From Deltaproteobacteria bacterium (GTDB taxonomy: Bacteria > Desulfobacterota > Syntrophobacteria > Syntrophobacterales > Syntrophobacteraceae), in contig JAKAJS010000235.1 in NCBI GenBank assembly GCA_021813685.1, positions 1 through 35,595 of the forward strand: a stretch of 35,595 bases of DNA. Reading direction: 5' to 3'. Position numbers and translations under genes: made by a program. Below the pieces are notes generated by a model that ran no database searches, was not told the DNA's origin, and saw only the letters and a program-made list of their open reading frames with translations. Positions 2,940 to 26,938 of the stretch are shown piece after piece. Position 1 is the first letter of the stretch. Each line of letters begins with the position of its first letter.

Positions 2940-3113
2940 TACGTAAATATCCTTTCAGGTATAACGGAAGCCAAATAATGGAAAACAGGCAGCGGAGGTG
3001 CGAGGGCAAACCGCTTCTGCTGCTTTTCGCTCATAAGTAGAGAGAATAAACCGGGATAGATATCGGAGGGCCATAGGCCGCCGGCAGGAACAGGAAAAAG
3101 GGCAAGAAGGGCA

Positions 3114-3292
3114 TTGCCCCCGCATTATGCCGTGTTGACAGGTGGTCTTGAACCTAAGGTTCAGGTGGGCGCCCTATGACTCCTTCAGGCTTCAGCACAG
3201 GGCTGTCTTGCACACCGGAGTCAGGCAGGGCCCCCGTTCAGTAAATGTTGGCTCAGAAACATTCTGCCAAATCACAAACACAGCAGGGGCAA
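3114..3292 (-). ncRNA. ssrS: 6S RNA
   Basis: About 179 nt that fold as a 6S RNA, the global regulator that mimics an open promoter and sequesters sigma-70 RNA polymerase. The ends pair (TTGCCCC at the 5' end with GGGGCAA at the 3' end), followed by TGTGTT/AACACG and TGGCAG/CTGTCA. The 5' side of the bubble carries CTGAGCCAACATTTAC, close to the conserved CTGAGCC segment of E. coli 6S RNA. The opposite side carries the hallmark small hairpin TGAACC-TTA-GGTTCA. The apical arm closes with GGGC/GCCC and a perfect TGACTCC/GGAGTCA stem. Placement upstream of rny agrees with proteobacterial synteny, in which 6S RNA often lies beside cell-division, folate-ligase or rny genes. Ends are inferred from pairing and may be off by a few bases. 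Confidence 0.92.
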
Positions 3293-3694
3293 ACCGAACA
3301 TTAACGATTTATTCTGTCGGCTCTGCGGATCGGACGCAACGACGACCAAATCCCTGAACCGGGACAAAAAATCATGTATTTCCGCCGAATAATTCGGTAA
3401 TGGGTGACCGGTTAAGCCGATCTCACCTTTAAGACGGTCTAAAGCAAATCTTCCCACACCCACCGCCTGGACGGCTGAATCTACGGTAGCATGAATGCAC
3501 CCCTCGCCTGCAGAGCCTGCGAAGGGATGCCGGCAAGTATGGGGATAGACTCTATATCCTCTCTCGCTAAGCATTGTAGCCAAATAATGATGCAATAGTC
3601 AAGTTCGATTATTACACACGGGAGGAGTGAACCGTTACGGGGGGCGGCTGGCGCCGCTGCTGGAGGGCTGGAGTGTGCACCCGAATCCATAGAA
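3293..3694. other. Intergenic stretch without a convincing gene
   Basis: The roughly 400 bases between the 6S RNA and the terminator of the ATP synthase operon hold only short open frames (up to 107 codons) with no recognisable domain, no good ribosome binding site and, in one case, overlap with the 6S RNA. The 6S RNA promoter must lie just above 3292 on the minus strand; AT-rich AATAAATCGTTAATG there is a plausible but weak -10 region. No tRNA is visible. Confidence 0.6.
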
Positions 3695-3724
3695 TAGGAA
3701 AAGCCTCCCGGCGAACCGGGAGGC
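3695..3724 (-). terminator. Rho-independent terminator of the ATP synthase operon
   Basis: On the minus strand a perfect 9-bp stem, GCCTCCCGG and CCGGGAGGC with a TTCG tetraloop, is followed by TTTTCCTATTCT. It begins 23 bases after the atpC stop codon and closes the operon. Confidence 0.9.
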
Positions 3725-3747
3725 CCATAGAAGGTGCAGAGGGGAAT

Positions 3748-4152
3748 CTACTGCCTCTCGGCAATCTTCAGGCGCGCCAGAGCCCTTTGCAGGGCAGCCT
3801 GTGCGCGGGCAAACTCCAATTTGTCCCTGGATTCGGCAAGACGCCTTTCGGCTCTTTCCCGTGCAGCCTTGGCGCGAATGACGTCAATATCGGTCGCGGC
3901 TTCAGCGGCAGTAGCAAGAATGGTGACCTGGTTATTGAGAACCTCGGCATACCCGCCCATTATGGCAACATGCTGCTGGGCGTTGCCCTGCCGAAACCGC
4001 AACTCCCCAACCCGCAGCTTGCAAAGGAAGGGAATGTGGCCGGGAAGAACGCCGAATTCTCCCATTTCTCCAGGCGCAACAACAATGTCAACGGTTTCGC
4101 TGACGACCTTTTTCTCCGGAGTAACGATCTCCAGGAAAATCTTTTCGGCCAT
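3748..4152 (-). CDS. atpC: F1F0 ATP synthase subunit epsilon
   Basis: Central-stalk subunit that links gamma to the c-ring and can inhibit ATP hydrolysis. 134 aa, the usual size. The N-terminal beta-sandwich (about residues 1-85) contains the family pattern APGEMGEFGVLPGH. The C-terminal part (90-134) is an alpha-helical hairpin rich in Ala, Arg and Glu, matching the mobile inhibitory helices. Last gene of the operon, 12 bases after atpD and just before a strong terminator. Confidence 0.96.
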   Translation of the reverse strand: MAEKIFLEIVTPEKKVVSETVDIVVAPGEMGEFGVLPGHIPFLCKLRVGELRFRQGNAQQHVAIMGGYAEVLNNQVTILATAAEAATDIDVIRAKAARERAERRLAESRDKLEFARAQAALQRALARLKIAERQ

Positions 4153-4164
4153 ACTCTCACCCCT

Positions 4165-5598
<1,434 letters not shown>

Positions 5599-6471
5599 TT
5601 ATTTCTTAAGGGCCTCAGCGCCGCCAACTATATCCATCAACTCCTTGGTAATACCCGCCTGTCGAGCCTTGTTATAGGTAAGAGTAAGCGTCCTTACCAA
5701 TTCCTTGCAGTTGTTAGTCGCGTTTTCCATGGCGGCCATGCGGGCGGCATGCTCGCCAACGGATGTCTGGTAAAGACTTTCAAGAACCTGCACATAAATA
5801 TAGTTGGGCAGCAGATCGGTCAACAGCGCCTGGTGAGAGGGCTCGAAGAGGTACTCGAACCCCTGATCCCCTTCCGCCTGAGCGGCAGGTGTAATGGGCA
5901 GAAGCCTCACTATCGAGGGCTGCTGTTTGACTATATTGATGAAATGGCTGTACAGTATGTAGACCTCGTCGGCGCCACCGGTTTCAAAGAGCTCGATGAG
6001 CCCGGAGCCAATCCGACGCGCGTCCTCGTAGGCAACCTTGTTGAGCAGCCCCGTGTGGCTTTCGCGCACATGGACAGGCCTTCTGCGGAAATAGTCCCTT
6101 GCCTTCCTTCCGGCATTGATGAGGCTCACTTCGATGCCTTCGGCCTTTTTGGCCCGGATAAACCGTTCGGCAGCGACCAGAAGGTTGGTGTTAAAGCTCC
6201 CGCAAAGTCCGCGGTCTGCAGTGACCAGCAAGAGCTCAACGGTCTTTACTTCCGGTTTGGGCGAAAGCAGCGTGTAGGCGCTGGTGTCTTCCACCCCCGC
6301 GGCGAGTCGTCCGATAAATTCGCGGAACTTCTGCGCGTAGGGGTGGAATTTCTCCATGTCGGCCTGGGCGCCGCGCAGTTTGGCCGCGGCGACCATATTC
6401 ATTGCCTTCGTGATCTGCGAGGTCTTCTTGACAGCGTCAATCTTCCTCTTTATGTCTCTTAGAGTTGCCAT
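5599..6471 (-). CDS. atpG: F1F0 ATP synthase subunit gamma
   Basis: Rotating shaft of F1, 290 aa. The N-terminal helix carries the conserved start MATLRDIKRKIDAVKKTSQITKAM. The C-terminal helix carries NCKELVRTLTLTYNKARQAGITKEL and ends in the typical EIVGGAEAL-like tail (DIVGGAEALKK). These two helices form the coiled coil that turns inside the alpha3beta3 ring. The middle is the less conserved Rossmann-like domain with ADRGLCGSFN. It is placed between atpA (35 bases upstream) and atpD (21 bases downstream). Confidence 0.97.
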   Translation of the reverse strand: MATLRDIKRKIDAVKKTSQITKAMNMVAAAKLRGAQADMEKFHPYAQKFREFIGRLAAGVEDTSAYTLLSPKPEVKTVELLLVTADRGLCGSFNTNLLVAAERFIRAKKAEGIEVSLINAGRKARDYFRRRPVHVRESHTGLLNKVAYEDARRIGSGLIELFETGGADEVYILYSHFINIVKQQPSIVRLLPITPAAQAEGDQGFEYLFEPSHQALLTDLLPNYIYVQVLESLYQTSVGEHAARMAAMENATNNCKELVRTLTLTYNKARQAGITKELMDIVGGAEALKK

Positions 6472-6506
6472 GTCAGATTCTGTCCTCTACTTGATTCCCG
6501 GACCTC

Positions 6507-8024
<1,518 letters not shown>

Positions 8025-8576
8025 TTATCCTACCGCACCCCTCTTCAAAGATTCTTTAAAAGTAAGAAGCTGACGCTTTACACTCCCGTCTAAAACAAAA
8101 TCGCCGATCTGCGCGAACACCCCGCCAAGAAGCGAAGGATCCAGCTCAAATTCGACGACGATTTTCTTTCCGATTCTTTTTTCGAGAGCTGCTGCGATTT
8201 TTTCGATCTCGGACGCATCAAGTTTTACAGCGGCCCTTACCTTCGCCCTCGAAATATTGGAATGCTCGTCGATCAACCTGTGGTAGTACTCGGTAATTTC
8301 GGGCAAGTGCTGAATGCGCTTTTTTTCGACAAGGAGGTTCAAAAAGCTGCCAACGATGGGCGAAAGCTCCAGGCTGGCGGCCACTTTCTGGAAAGTGTCC
8401 TTTTTAACCCCCTCGGGATAAAGCGGATTGCGCAAGAGGTTTTCAAAATCGGGGAGAGCCTTGAGGACCTTGTTGAAGCCGTCCAGCTCCGTTCCGTACT
8501 GTTCAATGGCCTGGCCCTCAGCGGCCAGATTGAACAGAGCCCTCGAATAACGCTTCGCGATAACTTGGTTTTTCAC
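8025..8576 (-). CDS. atpH: F1F0 ATP synthase subunit delta
   Basis: Peripheral-stalk cap that joins the b dimer to the top of F1, 183 aa. N-terminal helices (IAKRYSRALFNLAAE, then LRNPLYPEGVKKDTF) match the OSCP/delta family. The C-terminal part contains the family pattern DPSLLGGVFAQIGDFVLDGS. The start codon is GTG and overlaps the atpF TGA as GTGA; its own stop abuts the atpA start. Both junctions suggest coupled translation. Confidence 0.96.
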   Translation of the reverse strand: MKNQVIAKRYSRALFNLAAEGQAIEQYGTELDGFNKVLKALPDFENLLRNPLYPEGVKKDTFQKVAASLELSPIVGSFLNLLVEKKRIQHLPEITEYYHRLIDEHSNISRAKVRAAVKLDASEIEKIAAALEKRIGKKIVVEFELDPSLLGGVFAQIGDFVLDGSVKRQLLTFKESLKRGAVG

Positions 8577-9175
8577 TTCGCCTCCACCACCTTCGACATG
8601 AATTCGCTCACCAGACGCCTTTGATCATCGTTCTTCATCTTCTTTTCGATAATATTTTGAGCCGCCTCGACCGACAAGTCGATGACCTCGTCCTTCAACC
8701 GGTCGCGGGCAGCCTGAATCTCCTGCTCGATGGCGATCTGCGCCTGCTGCTGAATGTAGTCGGCCTCCCGGTGAGCAGCCTCGAGAATCTTTTGCTTTTC
8801 GGTTTCCCCCTCGGCAATCAGCTCATCGACGATCTTCCGGGTTTCCTCTTCAAGCTTTGCAAGCTTTTCCTGTACCTGCGCCTGTTCGGCCTTGGCCTCG
8901 GCGGTCTTGGTCTCCAGTTCGGCAAGCAGCCTCTGGATCTCCTCCCTGCGAGAACTCAGGAAGGTGGCAATGGGCTTTTTGAGCAGTTTTACGAGCACCA
9001 CGACAACGATGGTAGTCGCAACCACCCGGTAGGCGAAATCGGTCCAGTTAAGCGGCTCGGCAGCCTCGGCCTCCGCTGCAAACGCGGTGGTGAGCCAGGT
9101 CAAAGAAAGCGCTACCCCGGCCAGGGAGGCAAACAATCCGGATTTCAACATCTTTCCTCTACGACTCGCTAGCAT
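8573..9175 (-). CDS. atpF: F1F0 ATP synthase subunit b, with extra N-terminal hydrophobic segment
   Basis: Peripheral-stalk subunit of the membrane F0 sector, 200 aa from the chosen ATG. That ATG overlaps the b' stop as TGATG and sits 8 bases after GGGAGG. A TTG one codon earlier is possible but less likely. Residues 13-33 form a signal-peptide-like hydrophobic stretch ending AFA-A. A second helix at about 49-64 (VVATTIVVVVLVKLL) is the real membrane anchor. Residues 75-170 are a highly charged coiled coil with many E, K and Q residues. The longer N-terminus compared with the 156-aa E. coli subunit is therefore a probable cleavable signal or an added membrane segment. Partner of the preceding b'. 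Confidence 0.94.
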   Translation of the reverse strand: MLASRRGKMLKSGLFASLAGVALSLTWLTTAFAAEAEAAEPLNWTDFAYRVVATTIVVVVLVKLLKKPIATFLSSRREEIQRLLAELETKTAEAKAEQAQVQEKLAKLEEETRKIVDELIAEGETEKQKILEAAHREADYIQQQAQIAIEQEIQAARDRLKDEVIDLSVEAAQNIIEKKMKNDDQRRLVSEFMSKVVEAK

Positions 9176-9600
9176 CAAACCTTCCTCCCGAGAATCTTCT
9201 GCGCCAGTTCGCCCGAAAATGCCTTCACCTGCTGCTTTAGCTCCTTTCGAGCCACTGCAATGTCTTTTTCGATCTTTTCCCGCAGCTTTTGAACCTTCCC
9301 GGCAGTCTGCTCGGAGACCTGCCTCAGAAGCTCCTTTTCCTGCTCGTACCCGGCGGCCTTCAGTTCCTGAATCCTCTGAGCTCCGCTCAGCCGTGCCTCT
9401 TTCAGCCGCGTTTCATAGTCCGCCAACCCGGCCCGCATCTGTCCTTCGATGCTTTCAATCCCTTCCTGCTTCTCGACGATAAACCTCTTTCTCTCGGCGA
9501 CTATCCGACGAATCGGGCGGTACAGCACGAAATTCATCACGACAAGAAAGATCAGGAAATTGGCCATCTGGATTAAAAGCGAGTAATTGATTTCGACCAT
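9175..9600 (-). CDS. F1F0 ATP synthase subunit b' (second b-type subunit)
   Basis: First gene of the operon, 141 aa, a second b-type stalk subunit. A membrane helix at about residues 7-27 (LLIQMANFLIFLVVMNFVLY) is followed by YRPIRRIVAERKRF, the usual cytoplasmic exit, and then a charged coiled coil to the C-terminus. It would form a b/b' heterodimer with the following atpF, as in cyanobacteria, alphaproteobacteria and many deltaproteobacteria. The ATG is preceded by GGGAGGGTGGAG. Genes for the a and c subunits and AtpI are not beside it. Commonly labelled atpF' or atpX. Confidence 0.92.
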   Translation of the reverse strand: MVEINYSLLIQMANFLIFLVVMNFVLYRPIRRIVAERKRFIVEKQEGIESIEGQMRAGLADYETRLKEARLSGAQRIQELKAAGYEQEKELLRQVSEQTAGKVQKLREKIEKDIAVARKELKQQVKAFSGELAQKILGRKV

Positions 9601-10058
9601 CTGACTCCACCCTCCCGCTAAGACAAGAAATCATATGTCCTTCGACATACCTGCGCGCGCGGTCGATAACCAGCCTGGACCGACTGGCAAGGACTCTTCT
9701 ACTGCATGATTGGCCAGGAGCCAAGTCGAACAGACCGGAAGCGGCTGTGCCGCAACCGGGGCCCGGCACTTTCGCAGGGCGCCGTCCGACACGCCTCTGC
9801 GATAAAACCTCCCTCCACGACGGGGAGAGGCATTCCCATTTCCTTTGCCGGGCAAAAAAGCCCTTTTTCCCAAACCGGGAGCCCCTTTTTGCCTGACCGG
9901 AACAGCGGATGGTTGCGGCCGACTCAAACGGGCAAGACTGATGTTTCACACTGACACTTGGTTCTTGACATGGGCGTGCTTAGTAGCACAGGACGCCACT
10001 CTTGGCAAGTGAAAAGCGATAAAATTCACAACAATAATGCCCGGCTCCAAGGCCCGGC
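9601..10058. other. Spacer between rodA and the ATP synthase operon
   Basis: 458 bases with no convincing gene. Open frames of 82-98 codons on both strands are Arg/Pro/Gly-rich and domain-free. The stretch includes several homopolymer-flanked G/C blocks (for example GGGC-TTTTTT-GCCC on the minus strand near 9860) and a 9-bp direct repeat GCCCGGCTC near 10039-10060. It should hold the end of the rodA transcript and the ATP synthase promoter, but no classical terminator is visible. Confidence 0.55.
9663..9690 (-). promoter_or_regulatory. Possible promoter of the ATP synthase operon
   Basis: On the minus strand TTGCCA and TATCGA are separated by 16 bases, about 60 bases above the b' start codon. 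The match to the sigma-70 consensus is moderate, so this is only a candidate. Confidence 0.3.
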
Positions 10059-11174
10059 TCAGTGCGATTGGAATACGTATCGGCGCATGCTCACATTCTC
10101 CGCAAGCCCGATCGCAAGACACAGGGCGATTATCGACGAGCCTCCGTAGCTTACGAAGGGAAGCGTTATCCCCACCACAGGCAGAAGCCCCACCACCATG
10201 CCGATGTTGATGAGCGCCTGCCACATGATCAGCCCTCCCACACCGACAACAATGAGCGAGCCGAACCTGTCGCGCGACCTTGCTGCTATGCGCAGTATGA
10301 GAAAGATGAGCAGACAAAACAGCAGGATCAAAACGGTACAGCCCACGAATCCCCACTCTTCGGCCCAGACGGAGAAAATGAAATCGGTCTGCTTTTCGGG
10401 CAGAAAATGGAGCTTGTTCTGGGTACCTTTAAGAAACCCCTTCCCCCAAAGCTCTCCGGAACCGATCGCAATCTTTGACTGCCGGATGTGGTACCCGGCG
10501 CCGAGCGGATCGAGGTTGGGACTCATCAGGATGAGAATTCGCTGTTTCTGGTAGGGTTTCAACACATGATTCCATACAGGGAGAACGAGCGGCACGATGG
10601 CCAGGATAACAATCGCCAGGTATCTCCAGCGAACCCCCACAAAGAGGATCATGGAGCCGGCAACGGCAAACAGTGCGATGGCGCTTCCCAGATCGGGTTC
10701 GGCAAGAATCAGGAGCACGGGCAGCATGACCATCGCAACGGGAGGCAGGAGCTTTTTGATGCTCGGAAAATTCGTCATCTCCTGCGCCGAAAAGTAGCTG
10801 GCGAGTTGGATGATGATCACCACTTTTACGAACTCGGAGGGCTGGAACTGAAAGCCCGCGATCTCGAGCCACCTTTTGGAGCCGTGCGACACTCTTCCGA
10901 TCACGAGAACGGCGGCAAGAAGCAGCACTATCCCGCCATAGAGCCAGGGGCTGATGGCCCTCAGGCGCTGATAGTTGATAAAAAGCGAACCGCACATGAC
11001 TGCAAGACCGATCGTCAGCCACACAATCTGCTTTATGAAAAGATTGTTGGCCGGCCGCGCCTGGATCTGGGGATACACCGCGGAGTAGATGCTCAAAAGT
11101 CCGATGCATACGATCGCCAACACGGTCCAGATAACCGACCAGTCGAAATTTTCGATAAGGCGTCTGTCCATCAT
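10059..11174 (-). CDS. rodA: Rod-shape peptidoglycan glycosyltransferase RodA
   Basis: SEDS-family glycosyltransferase that polymerises glycan strands during lateral wall growth, working with PBP2. 371 aa, about ten membrane helices. Family landmarks are SHGSKRWLEIAGFQFQPSEF in the first half, HFLPEKQTDFIFSVWAEEWG (the catalytic-loop region), and the C-terminal GITLPFVSYGGSSI. The start is ATGATG; either ATG is possible. Last gene of the mre/mrd cluster, 173 bases after mrdA. Also known as mrdB. Confidence 0.96.
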   Translation of the reverse strand: MMDRRLIENFDWSVIWTVLAIVCIGLLSIYSAVYPQIQARPANNLFIKQIVWLTIGLAVMCGSLFINYQRLRAISPWLYGGIVLLLAAVLVIGRVSHGSKRWLEIAGFQFQPSEFVKVVIIIQLASYFSAQEMTNFPSIKKLLPPVAMVMLPVLLILAEPDLGSAIALFAVAGSMILFVGVRWRYLAIVILAIVPLVLPVWNHVLKPYQKQRILILMSPNLDPLGAGYHIRQSKIAIGSGELWGKGFLKGTQNKLHFLPEKQTDFIFSVWAEEWGFVGCTVLILLFCLLIFLILRIAARSRDRFGSLIVVGVGGLIMWQALINIGMVVGLLPVVGITLPFVSYGGSSIIALCLAIGLAENVSMRRYVFQSH

Positions 11175-11347: not shown

Positions 11348-13213
11348 CTACTTAGGCGGCGTACCGCTTTTGACTTTCAAATAGGCCTTCATCACCGCCT
11401 CGACGGTCGGCCCCGCAGCCGTTCCCCCATGGCCGCCGTGTTCGACAATTGCAGCCACACAAATTTTGGGATCGGAGGCGGGCGCCCAGCCGACAAACCA
11501 TCCGTCGTCCTTCGCCTTTTCCGCAGCGGCTTTCCCTTTCGTCACATGGCCCAGATTCACCACCTGAGCCGTGCCGGTTTTTCCGGCAATGGGGAGTGCG
11601 GGGTCGTAGAGGTGATGGGCCGTTCCCCGCGGGTCGCTTACTACCTCGGAGAGAGCCTTCTGCACCACTTCGAAATACTTCTGGTCTATGGGAATCTCGC
11701 GCTTGAGCCTCGGCTCGGCGCCCGGAACCTGCCCGGGGGCCATGCCCTCGATCTTGTTTACGACGTAGGGTGTCCACAGCTTCCCGCTATTGGCGATCGC
11801 GCTGTAGCCCATGGCCATCTGGAGGGGAGTCGCCAGGTCGTAGCCCTGCCCGATGGAGATCGATAGGGTTTCCCCCTTTTCCCAGGGATGGCCCGTTACC
11901 CGTTTTTTCCAGGCCGAACTGGGGACGAGCCCAGCGTTTTCCCCCGGAAGACCTATGCCCGTCTTTTGCCCGAGCCCGAACATTTTGACGTACTTGGCGA
12001 TTCGATCGACTCCGAGCAAGAGCCCGGTGTGATAGAAAAAAACATCGCAGGACTCAATCAGCGCCGTTTCCACCGGAATGGTACCGTGTCCGCCCTTTCG
12101 CCAGCAATGATAGTCGCGCCCGGCAAACGCCAGGTAGCCGGGACAAAAGAAGGTGGTGGACGGGGTGATCACTCCGCATTGCAGAGCGGCAAGAGCCAGG
12201 TACGGTTTGTAGGTGGACCCGGGTGGATAGGCGGCTCCGCAGACCCGGTTGAGCATGGGATGATCCGGGTCTTTGGCCATGGCGAGCCATTCCTTTTCGG
12301 TGAGCCCCTTGATGAACTGCTCCTGGTCGAAAGTGGGGGTGGAGACGAAAGCCAGAACCTGCCCGTTGTTGGGGTCAACGGCCACCAGAGCTCCGGCCTT
12401 TCCGGCCAAACCCGCCTCAGCCGCTCTCTGGGCGTCCATATCGATCGTTAGCCACAGGTCGTGGCCCGCAACGGGAGGCTGCTCTTCGAGCAATCCCACC
12501 CGCCTTCCAATCGCGTCGACCTCCACCTGCCGGTGTCCCCTCACCCCGTGAAGATATTTTTCGAAGGCGGCCTCGACACCCATCTTGCCGATGTCCTCCC
12601 CGGGATAGTAGCCGGGGTATTTTCCGCTCTTGAGCTCCGCCTCGGTAATCTGGCTCAAATACCCGATCAGGTGCGCAGCCGTTCCGTCAAAGTTGTACTC
12701 GCGCTTGGGCTCGATCTCTATTTCCACCCCGGGAAGCCGCACCAGTTCCGCCTCCACCCGGGCAAGGCAGTCCCTGTCCATGTCGGAGACAAGCCGTATC
12801 GGGTCAAACCGCGGAGTCTCCCGGTTGGCCTTGACGACCGCAAACAAATCGGAAGGGTCGCACCGGCACAGGCGCGCGACGGCATCGATCGTAGCCGGAA
12901 GGTCCTTTACGTCCTCACGCACGAGCATCAGGTCGTAGGCCGGCCGGTTCTCCACGATCGGAACGCCGTTTCTGTCATAGATGATCCCGCGCGGGGCCTC
13001 GATGTCTTCGGTGCGGATCCGGTTGTTTTGCGACTCGTAGCGGTAGTGTTCTCCGCGAAGCACCTGCAGAAACCACAGCCGTGAAACGTATATCGACATC
13101 ACCAGCAGCATCACGGCAAAAAAGACGATGTACTGCTTCTTGAAAGAAAGCGACTCGGCGTTTTCAACGTGCATCAGCTTGGGTCCGTCGACCTTCCTGA
13201 CCTTCGTCTTCAT
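11348..13213 (-). CDS. mrdA: Penicillin-binding protein 2 (peptidoglycan D,D-transpeptidase)
   Basis: Transpeptidase that cross-links peptidoglycan in the elongasome, paired with RodA. 621 aa with a short cytoplasmic N-terminus, one membrane helix (about residues 29-48), a pedestal domain including APRGIIYDRNG, and a C-terminal penicillin-binding domain. Catalytic motifs are STYK with nucleophile S333 and general base K336, an SxN-type motif present as SCD (in ESCDVFFYHTG), and KTG at residues 545-547. SCD instead of SxN is usual for PBP2. It lies 22 bases after mreD. Confidence 0.97.
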   Translation of the reverse strand: MKTKVRKVDGPKLMHVENAESLSFKKQYIVFFAVMLLVMSIYVSRLWFLQVLRGEHYRYESQNNRIRTEDIEAPRGIIYDRNGVPIVENRPAYDLMLVREDVKDLPATIDAVARLCRCDPSDLFAVVKANRETPRFDPIRLVSDMDRDCLARVEAELVRLPGVEIEIEPKREYNFDGTAAHLIGYLSQITEAELKSGKYPGYYPGEDIGKMGVEAAFEKYLHGVRGHRQVEVDAIGRRVGLLEEQPPVAGHDLWLTIDMDAQRAAEAGLAGKAGALVAVDPNNGQVLAFVSTPTFDQEQFIKGLTEKEWLAMAKDPDHPMLNRVCGAAYPPGSTYKPYLALAALQCGVITPSTTFFCPGYLAFAGRDYHCWRKGGHGTIPVETALIESCDVFFYHTGLLLGVDRIAKYVKMFGLGQKTGIGLPGENAGLVPSSAWKKRVTGHPWEKGETLSISIGQGYDLATPLQMAMGYSAIANSGKLWTPYVVNKIEGMAPGQVPGAEPRLKREIPIDQKYFEVVQKALSEVVSDPRGTAHHLYDPALPIAGKTGTAQVVNLGHVTKGKAAAEKAKDDGWFVGWAPASDPKICVAAIVEHGGHGGTAAGPTVEAVMKAYLKVKSGTPPK

Positions 13214-25998: not shown

Positions 25999-26293
25999 GA
26001 CCGCCAACCCTCCCTTTCGCGTTTCTGGTATACTCATTCCCGCTCTCCTCATGATACTCTTGTCCTGAAGGTTGTGCAAACTCCCCCTTTTGCTGTCGGG
26101 CGCCTCTTACGCCTGCCGTACGGATATGACCATATTTGCTTTCGAGAAGGTTTTACACTATTTTACTGGTAGCTGCCTGAGCTAAAGGAGCCGGAGCCCC
26201 GGAGGTTCCCCCGATTGACTTTTTGACCGAGTTGGTTCATTTTGGCCCGGTGATAGTAACCAAGCCTCTTTACCTTCGCTTATGGAGGAATTC
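25999..26293. other. Divergent spacer between flavodoxin and metallo-hydrolase genes
   Basis: 295 bases without a convincing gene. TTGACTTTTTGACC near 26216 could supply a -35 box for the rightward genes, but a matching -10 is weak. Confidence 0.4.
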
Positions 26294-26938
26294 ATGAAGA
26301 TAGAACAGATTCCGGTCGGTTTCATGCAGGTCTTCTGCTACCTGGTCTACGACGAGGAAAAAAAGGAAGGTATTCTGATCGACCCTGCCGGAAATGAAAA
26401 GGAACTCCTGGAGCACCTCAGGCAAAAGGGCATAACCCTGCGCTATATCGTAAACACCCACGGACATGCCGATCATACGTGCGGAAACCGTCCCATCCGT
26501 GAGGCCACCGGGGCAAAAGTGGTGATGCATGCCGAAGACGATTCCTTTTTTGAAAGGCCGGAAAACAAGATGTTTGCCCGCAGCATGGGATTTGCGGACC
26601 CGGGCGTAGTGGACGTGGATGTAGAGGATGGCGAGGAGCTTTCGTTTGGAAATCTCAAGATGAAATTCCTCCACACCCCCGGCCACACGCCCGGGGCCTG
26701 CTGCATTCTCATCGAGGGAAACCTGTTCACCGGAGACACCCTGTTTGTCGGGGCGGTCGGCCGCACCGATCTGCCGGGGGGCTCCTACGAACAGCTCATC
26801 CGGTCTCTTCAGGACCTTGTGCGCAAACTTCCGCCGGATACCGTCGTGTGGCCGGGCCACGACTACGGAGACAGGCCCCGGTCTACCTTGAAGCATGAAG
26901 CCGAGACCAATCCGTACATAGCCGAGTACATGGAATAA
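26294..26938 (+). CDS. MBL-fold metallo-hydrolase (glyoxalase II-like)
   Basis: Metallo-beta-lactamase-fold hydrolase, 214 aa. The ATG 5 bases after GGAGGAAT was preferred to one 4 codons upstream. Metal ligands are visible: H56-G-H58-A-D60-H61, then a His in HTPGHTPG, an Asp in FTGDTLF and a His in WPGHDYG, so the full di-metal site is intact. The sequence is of the glyoxalase II/YcbL type that hydrolyses small thioesters, but the true substrate is unknown. It precedes inositol-phosphate synthase by about 75 bases, so it may share a transcript. Confidence 0.9.
   Translation: MKIEQIPVGFMQVFCYLVYDEEKKEGILIDPAGNEKELLEHLRQKGITLRYIVNTHGHADHTCGNRPIREATGAKVVMHAEDDSFFERPENKMFARSMGFADPGVVDVDVEDGEELSFGNLKMKFLHTPGHTPGACCILIEGNLFTGDTLFVGAVGRTDLPGGSYEQLIRSLQDLVRKLPPDTVVWPGHDYGDRPRSTLKHEAETNPYIAEYME

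Follow-up and report, generated by a model that had tools for sequence, protein, structure and literature searches.

The ATP synthases of chloroplasts and cyanobacteria are built with a b/b' pair of stalk subunits. Among bacteria, a doubled b is described for delta- and epsilonproteobacteria, acidobacteria, deferribacteres, aquificae and other lineages, and an interruption of the gene order between c and b (the 0C/0B break) is described for the same named groups in PMC4154653; a second survey puts the break between c and b, with the same gene order, at 76.3% for Deltaproteobacteria (PMC5709465). One species listed in the former, Desulfococcus oleovorans, has a duplicated ectopic Fo (double 0A-0C-0B'-0B; PMC4154653). 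Fused rotor subunits are also on record: the rotor of Acetobacterium woodii combines a c1 of two hairpins with a single c (PDB 4bem), and the archaeal A/V-type c/K spans 3 hairpins in Methanocaldococcus jannaschii and 13 in Methanopyrus kandleri (PMC2359735). For ion binding, the reference used here is the Na+ c ring of Fusobacterium nucleatum, where the site comprises Glu32 (Gln in Ilyobacter), the Val63 backbone, Glu65, Ser66, a water at Thr67, and Tyr70 (PMC3692424; all c residues are given in Ilyobacter numbering).

The window analysed here is a 35,595-nucleotide stretch (G000:C35:1-35595) of a Syntrophobacteraceae-like draft genome of 5.06 Mb (285 contigs, 97% complete, 6% contamination). 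A Pfam profile search of its reading frames places seven F1 and stalk genes on the minus strand, all above the Pfam cut-offs, in the order b'-b-delta-alpha-gamma-beta-epsilon (9600 to 3748). The cluster opens with the b' stalk subunit (atpX/atpF', 141 aa, 9175..9600; PF00430, E 2.1e-15), whose top NCBIfam match is the subunit B' model, below the cut-off of that model; an ATG at 9175 in the following b gene (atpF, 201 aa, 8573..9178; PF00430, E 1.2e-17) overlaps the b' stop (TGATG). The b gene in turn overlaps delta (OSCP; atpH, 8025..8576; PF00213, E 7.8e-50) by four bases, and delta is followed by alpha (atpA, 6507..8024; PF00006/PF00306/PF02874), gamma (atpG, 5599..6471; PF00231, E 2.4e-95), beta (atpD, 4165..5577; PF00006/PF22919/PF02874) and epsilon (atpC, 3748..4152; PF02823/PF00401). 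Flanking genes on the same strand lie outside the enzyme: upstream are rodA (10059..11174; PF01098, E 1.4e-109), mrdA/PBP2 (11348-13213) and, further upstream, mreC and mreB, with a 173-aa frame among the mreB/mreC/mrdA genes that is mreD by position only, and downstream of epsilon are RNase Y and then a Trp/Tyr-class tRNA synthetase. The profile search of the window returned no match to a (PF00119), c (PF00137) or atpI. An earlier note, made from the DNA letters of this window, had described F1 and stalk genes only, with paired b/b', in a cluster starting at b' and lacking atpI, atpB and atpE, and the seven Pfam matches bear this out; the coordinates it gave (9175-9600) are those of b' itself, and the cluster spans 3748-9600.

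The other half is present in the same genome. Its sole PF00119 match (C89:25375-25956) sits 25 kb inside a different contig, in the order hemL-atpZ-atpI-atpB-atpE-rex, with c at 26191-26382; atpZ (PF09527), atpI (PF03899), a, c and Rex are assigned by Pfam, hemL by NCBIfam, and rex by NCBIfam as well. The note's prediction that rotor and channel genes would be found elsewhere is thus supported, and its refuting case, a and c just beyond the window in the same operon, can be rejected, as a lies between atpI and c on C89 with hemL before and rex after; since the assembly is a draft, contig flanks set the only limit on how close Fo and F1 could lie in this genome. Profile searches found a single copy each of a, delta, gamma and alpha in the genome. 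Tetranucleotide use correlates between the C89 stretch and the window at r 0.96 (G+C 55.7 and 56.7%), a match that shows kinship rather than identity since near relatives also reach r 0.95 to the window (L006). In a tree of a proteins the a of this genome groups among its nearest relatives, and the closest named relatives (drafts labelled Syntrophobacteraceae or Deltaproteobacteria) have an a of 91-92% identity. Signal-peptide-like N-termini were seen by eye in both c (L001:2128-2565) and b (window 8573-9178).

The genome encodes an F-type ATP synthase, having genes for alpha, beta, gamma, delta, epsilon, a, b and c. The presence of delta, and the separation of a and c, set it apart from the N-type (no delta; beta-epsilon-...-a-c-b-alpha-gamma in one cluster), and the window genes are F-type rather than the A, B, C, D, E, F, I and K of the A/V-type. 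We read the window, with a probability of roughly 0.93, as encoding F1 and the stalk of an ordinary bacterial F1Fo-ATP synthase that is split over two separate gene clusters. The gene content and the separation are observed; assembly and function would follow the family. The window cluster would supply b', b, delta, alpha, gamma, beta and epsilon, and the C89 cluster would add a as the channel, c as the rotor, and AtpZ and AtpI as helpers. Products of both clusters would meet at the membrane, where the c ring and a would form the ion path, b and b' a heterodimeric stalk linking a to delta, and F1 would make ATP.

This arrangement extends across the relatives. Fifty-nine genomes, including that of the window, were searched, and in all 56 that have both an a and a strong delta match the two are separated by a contig boundary or by at least 0.57 Mb; none of the 56 has them within 20 kb on one contig. 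Seven genomes carry both on one contig, at least distances of 0.57 to 1.24 Mb, and in the remainder they fall on different contigs, so that in principle the breaks in the assemblies allow some doubt. The weak delta matches of three genomes (G016, G020, G024) were left out; that of G020 lies 1.5 kb from an N-type a. N-type ATPase clusters are scattered in the family (L109, L113 and L114, from G001, G020 and G024), and the only a found in G001 lies in such a cluster. On the Fo side, 21 of the 32 named loci (L004-L035) have all six genes of hemL-atpZ-atpI-atpB-atpE-rex, the other 11 being without one or more, some owing to a contig end; an F1 gene lies beside Fo in none of the 32 (3.7 to 20.7 kb of DNA per locus). 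Applied as a control to 48 other loci (L036-L083), this search detects alpha next to a in 33, and many of the 15 loci without it come from Acidobacteriota, in which the locus is likewise split in print (PMC4154653). On the F1 side, mrdA and rodA precede b' in 20/20 relatives' loci that were fetched, in keeping with the note's argument that rodA makes an adjacent a and c unlikely, and 18 of these 20 hold all seven F1/stalk genes plus mrdA-rodA, L088 being cut and L105 incomplete. The F1 cluster of L105 (G044) seems to stop in gamma, with a second alpha, and the gamma match, ~0.8 Mb away, which seems to be a rearrangement or an assembly fault.

Doubling of b is general, as at least two PF00430 matches occur in all 56 of the 59 genomes that have any. 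The gene clusters of chloroplasts and cyanobacteria differ from that of the window, whereas the published deltaproteobacterial layout does not: the window genome has the same c/b break and the same order, with b' and b beside F1, and a, c and I elsewhere, and nothing of substance is different. Since the split and the doubled b are already in print for Deltaproteobacteria, the layout of the window is known and ordinary for its class.

Control of the two clusters was considered from the rex gene directly after atpE on C89, Rex being an NADH sensor by family. The Rex motif has three matches in the window against 2.1 expected, none of them near b', and none in the C89 stretch. A looser scan of the same genome gave a best score of 8 of 14 before atpZ (reached by 154/200 shuffles) and 10 of 14 before b' (reached by 18/200); across the regions before b', 12 of 19 score 10 or 11 of 14, at scattered places. 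Rex is therefore not supported as a shared regulator of the two clusters in this genome, neither of which has a convincing site. A Rex-like palindrome (GTGAACATTTACAC and similar) stands close before atpZ in eight of 13 loci (L008, L009, L010, L012, L015, L017, L023 and L034), scoring 10 to 12 of 14 and reached by 0-15 of 200 shuffles; it is absent from the window's own genome and from L004-L007 (8 of 14). Within the window, the 458-base gap between rodA and b' (9601-10058, minus strand) contains a promoter-like block, TTGCCA-17-TACTAA (9980..10008, minus strand), toward its rodA end, ~380-400 bases before b'; it was picked out by eye in a six-row alignment, is not in the consensus-scan list, and its surroundings are conserved in the genus, which suggests that the F1 cluster may have its own transcription start. 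After epsilon lies a terminator-like hairpin of 11 pairs, 8 of them GC (3701..3726, minus strand), a pattern match only, in a region (3000-10500) where 12 such hairpins were found against 8.4 expected.

Gene counts in the relatives point to a further layer. Among genomes with at least one gamma, a outnumbers gamma in 23 of 59, and in 37 of 296 sampled across the phylum (the latter count read by eye); the reverse, gamma above a, occurs in 1/59 and 7/296, which sets the noise level of draft genomes. Twelve relatives (G020, G026, G028, G030, G033, G034, G036, G037, G038, G039, G042 and G046) were chosen for fetching on the strength of a and c matches suggestive of a second Fo. All 12 have one (at L106, L107, L108, L111, L112, L116, L117, L120, L130, L134, L135 and L136), consisting of an a of 224-235 aa, a fused c, a single c, b' and b, and no F1 gene adjoins it in the fetched flanks of any of the 12 (those of G036 and G039 being short on one side). 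Eleven of the 12 also have the usual a and c, followed by rex, and the c site in all 11 is Gln-Glu-Ser-Leu; atpZ, atpI and hemL were not seen in the usual cluster of G046, nor hemL in that of G036, and in G039 no usual a was found. Ten of the 12, among them Desulfacinum hydrothermale DSM 13146 (G028), thus combine the usual Fo and a second Fo with only one delta-type F1. The two a genes of G028 share their coordinates with those of G360, the genome that contains locus L034. Each of these ten has one strong delta match, and each one gamma except G020, whose second gamma lies within its N-type cluster; G046 has one delta and no gamma match. Alpha counts agree: leaving G020 aside, eight of the nine genomes have a single match, and G033 adds to its one match a weak second that misses the cut-off.

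In the a tree, the second-Fo proteins group as a single clade (13 rows, 100/100) separate from the usual a; its join with the N-type rows may be a long-branch effect, of which the program warned. Seven further second-Fo loci came from elsewhere in the phylum, one in G074 and six among ten a-bearing loci, the other four being of the usual type. In G074, G190 and G286 (L133, L137, L141) an Fo of the second type immediately precedes delta-alpha-gamma-beta within a single cluster, which shows it to be part of an F1Fo enzyme; no adjoining F1 was seen in G193, G270, G211 and G171. Counts of a and gamma are two and one in G074, G190 and G270, and three and two in G193, G211 and G286; G171, with two of each, shows no excess. 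Nine neighbouring proteins at three loci (L,D-transpeptidase, patatin, MFS, SRP54 and others) gave no functional hint. No second Fo was found in the genome of the window, and the 11 genus members have one a each, that of G001 being N-type.

In the rotor of the second Fo, the single c reads Glu32-Val63-Ser64-Glu65-Ser66-Thr67-Tyr70 in 17 of 19 loci, the other two differing only at position 64, and so resembles a two-carboxylate Na+ site, sharing Glu32, Glu65, Ser66, Thr67 and Tyr70 with the Fusobacterium ring (PMC3692424). Two carboxylates alone are no proof of Na+, since an N-type c ring with two carboxylates is described as proton-binding in PMC5376962; that ring has Thr and Met where the second Fo has Ser and Thr. 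The fused c, which the Fusobacterium ring lacks, comprises two, three or four hairpins in the 12 relatives, five in G190 and six in G286. Hairpins past the first often have Gln for Glu65, and many are without the ion-binding Glu: Glu65 is kept in one of six hairpins of the 483-aa protein of G286 (L141:5783-7234; six Pfam domains), with Gln in the other five, and in two of four hairpins of the 324-aa protein of G026 (L106:7115-8089; four Pfam domains), with Gln in the other two, and Gln replaces it in four of five in G190 (L137:1832-3040). Both fused hairpins keep Glu65 in G042, G046 and G039. A parallel in rotor make-up is Acetobacterium woodii, where a fused c also stands beside a single c and one fused hairpin has Gln for Glu in our alignment; the relatives differ in fusing two to six hairpins and in having no F1 beside Fo in 16 of 19 second-Fo loci. 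The genome of the window has no such fused c. Archaeal c/K chains share the multi-hairpin form and the loss of ligands after duplication, yet they belong to A/V-type enzymes, whereas the fused c here lies beside F-type a, b' and b. Like the ectopic set of Desulfococcus oleovorans, the second Fo is an a-c-b'-b set away from F1, found here in several families rather than one listed species; the available text of PMC4154653 makes no mention of a fused c or a shared F1, and a literature search of partial coverage returned nothing recognisable on one F1 with two Fo, or on a fused F-type c, in Desulfobacterota.

For the window's own enzyme, the aligned c has Gln32, Met63, Ile64, Glu65, Ser66, Leu67 and Tyr70. 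A c was recovered from 31 of the 32 named loci (none from L020): 23 read the same, seven have Met at 32, and L035 has Gln32-Glu65-Ser66-Ile67, such that Glu65-Ser66 is present in all 31 and Gln32 together with Glu65 and Ser66 in 24. The Na+ side-chain ligands are thus present and the water-holding Thr67 is replaced by Leu. Relative to the Fusobacterium ring, the own c differs in Gln32 and Leu67 (PMC3692424); relative to the chloroplast c, which pumps H+ (PMC3971453) and has a Gln-Glu-Ala-Leu site (Ala66, Leu67, in the context Gln-...-Glu-x-Leu-Thr-Ile-Tyr), it shares Gln32 and Leu67 and has Ser66 in place of Ala. The earlier note had asked that atpB and atpE be located and the ion residues inspected; the genes were found, and the site is ambiguous. 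Its suggestion that the split bears on the driving ion is weakened, as the split itself says little on H+ versus Na+.

These residues, and the second c-like gene of the genome, bear on which rotor and which ion the window F1 would use. The search found just one further c-like gene in the genome, the PF00137 match on C183, which is in that sense a candidate partner; it belongs, however, to a whole A/V-type cluster (C, I, K, F, E, A, B, D; L085:4158-12087, G000:C183), whose E subunit falls just below the Pfam cut-off, and a true a and c exist on C89, leaving this pairing with next to no likelihood, and we reject it. The same observation means that the genome has two kinds of rotary ATPase. The A/V-type cluster sits downstream of a formate/nitrite transporter gene. 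With the C89 c as the rotor, Na+ coupling could still arise if Gln32, Glu65 and Ser66 bound Na+ without Thr67; the three ligands occur in the own c and most named loci, and a 2008 criterion (Gln/Glu32, Glu65, Ser/Thr66; PMC2359735) would class this c as Na+-capable. Leu67, however, cannot hold the water seen at Thr67 of the Fusobacterium ring (PMC3692424), and the relatives' second Fo sets, with their fuller Glu32-Glu65-Ser66-Thr67-Tyr70 site, indicate that the lineage knows a more complete Na+ site, which the main c does without. Judged from these residues, Na+ coupling appears the less probable outcome, at little better than one chance in three, and H+ is somewhat more likely to be the driving ion.

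A broader reading of the split is that separation frees F1 for alternative Fo sets, such that in the relatives the usual Fo and a second, Na+-type Fo would share the single F1. The surplus of a over gamma in 23 of 59 genomes, the 12 second Fo sets without adjoining F1 (ten of them with the usual cluster and one delta-type F1), and the joined clusters of G074, G190 and G286, the first two of which have two a and one gamma, argue for it. Set against these are the window's genome and the 11 genus members, with no second Fo and one a each, respectively; the second Fo comes with b and b' genes of its own and might not be expressed, and the delta of a shared F1 would have to fit both stalks; and draft genomes miss genes, at the rate that the reverse imbalance (1/59, 7/296) indicates. 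We place this reading just short of an even chance. The wider proposal that the split is a functional modularity, in which many Desulfobacterota could mount a single F1, of the kind that lies beside mrdA-rodA in the window, on two rotors and so switch ion and ions per ATP, is a shade more tentative still. Under such modularity, one rotor would be the usual Fo with its Gln-Glu-Ser-Leu site and the other the Na+-type Fo, its single c mixed with a fused c of two to six hairpins, many without a carboxylate; exchanging Fo would alter the ion and the number of ions per ATP with F1 constant, and the genome of the window would represent the one-rotor state.

For the window itself, then, nothing is missing: its enzyme's other half has been located, and the layout matches that of its class. 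For two rotors to share one F1 would be unusual, and Desulfacinum hydrothermale is a named strain showing both Fo sets. Should a single F1 indeed serve two Fo, the ion-to-ATP ratio, usually taken as fixed per enzyme, would become a choice of gene expression, with a bearing on how anaerobes near the energy limit make ATP.
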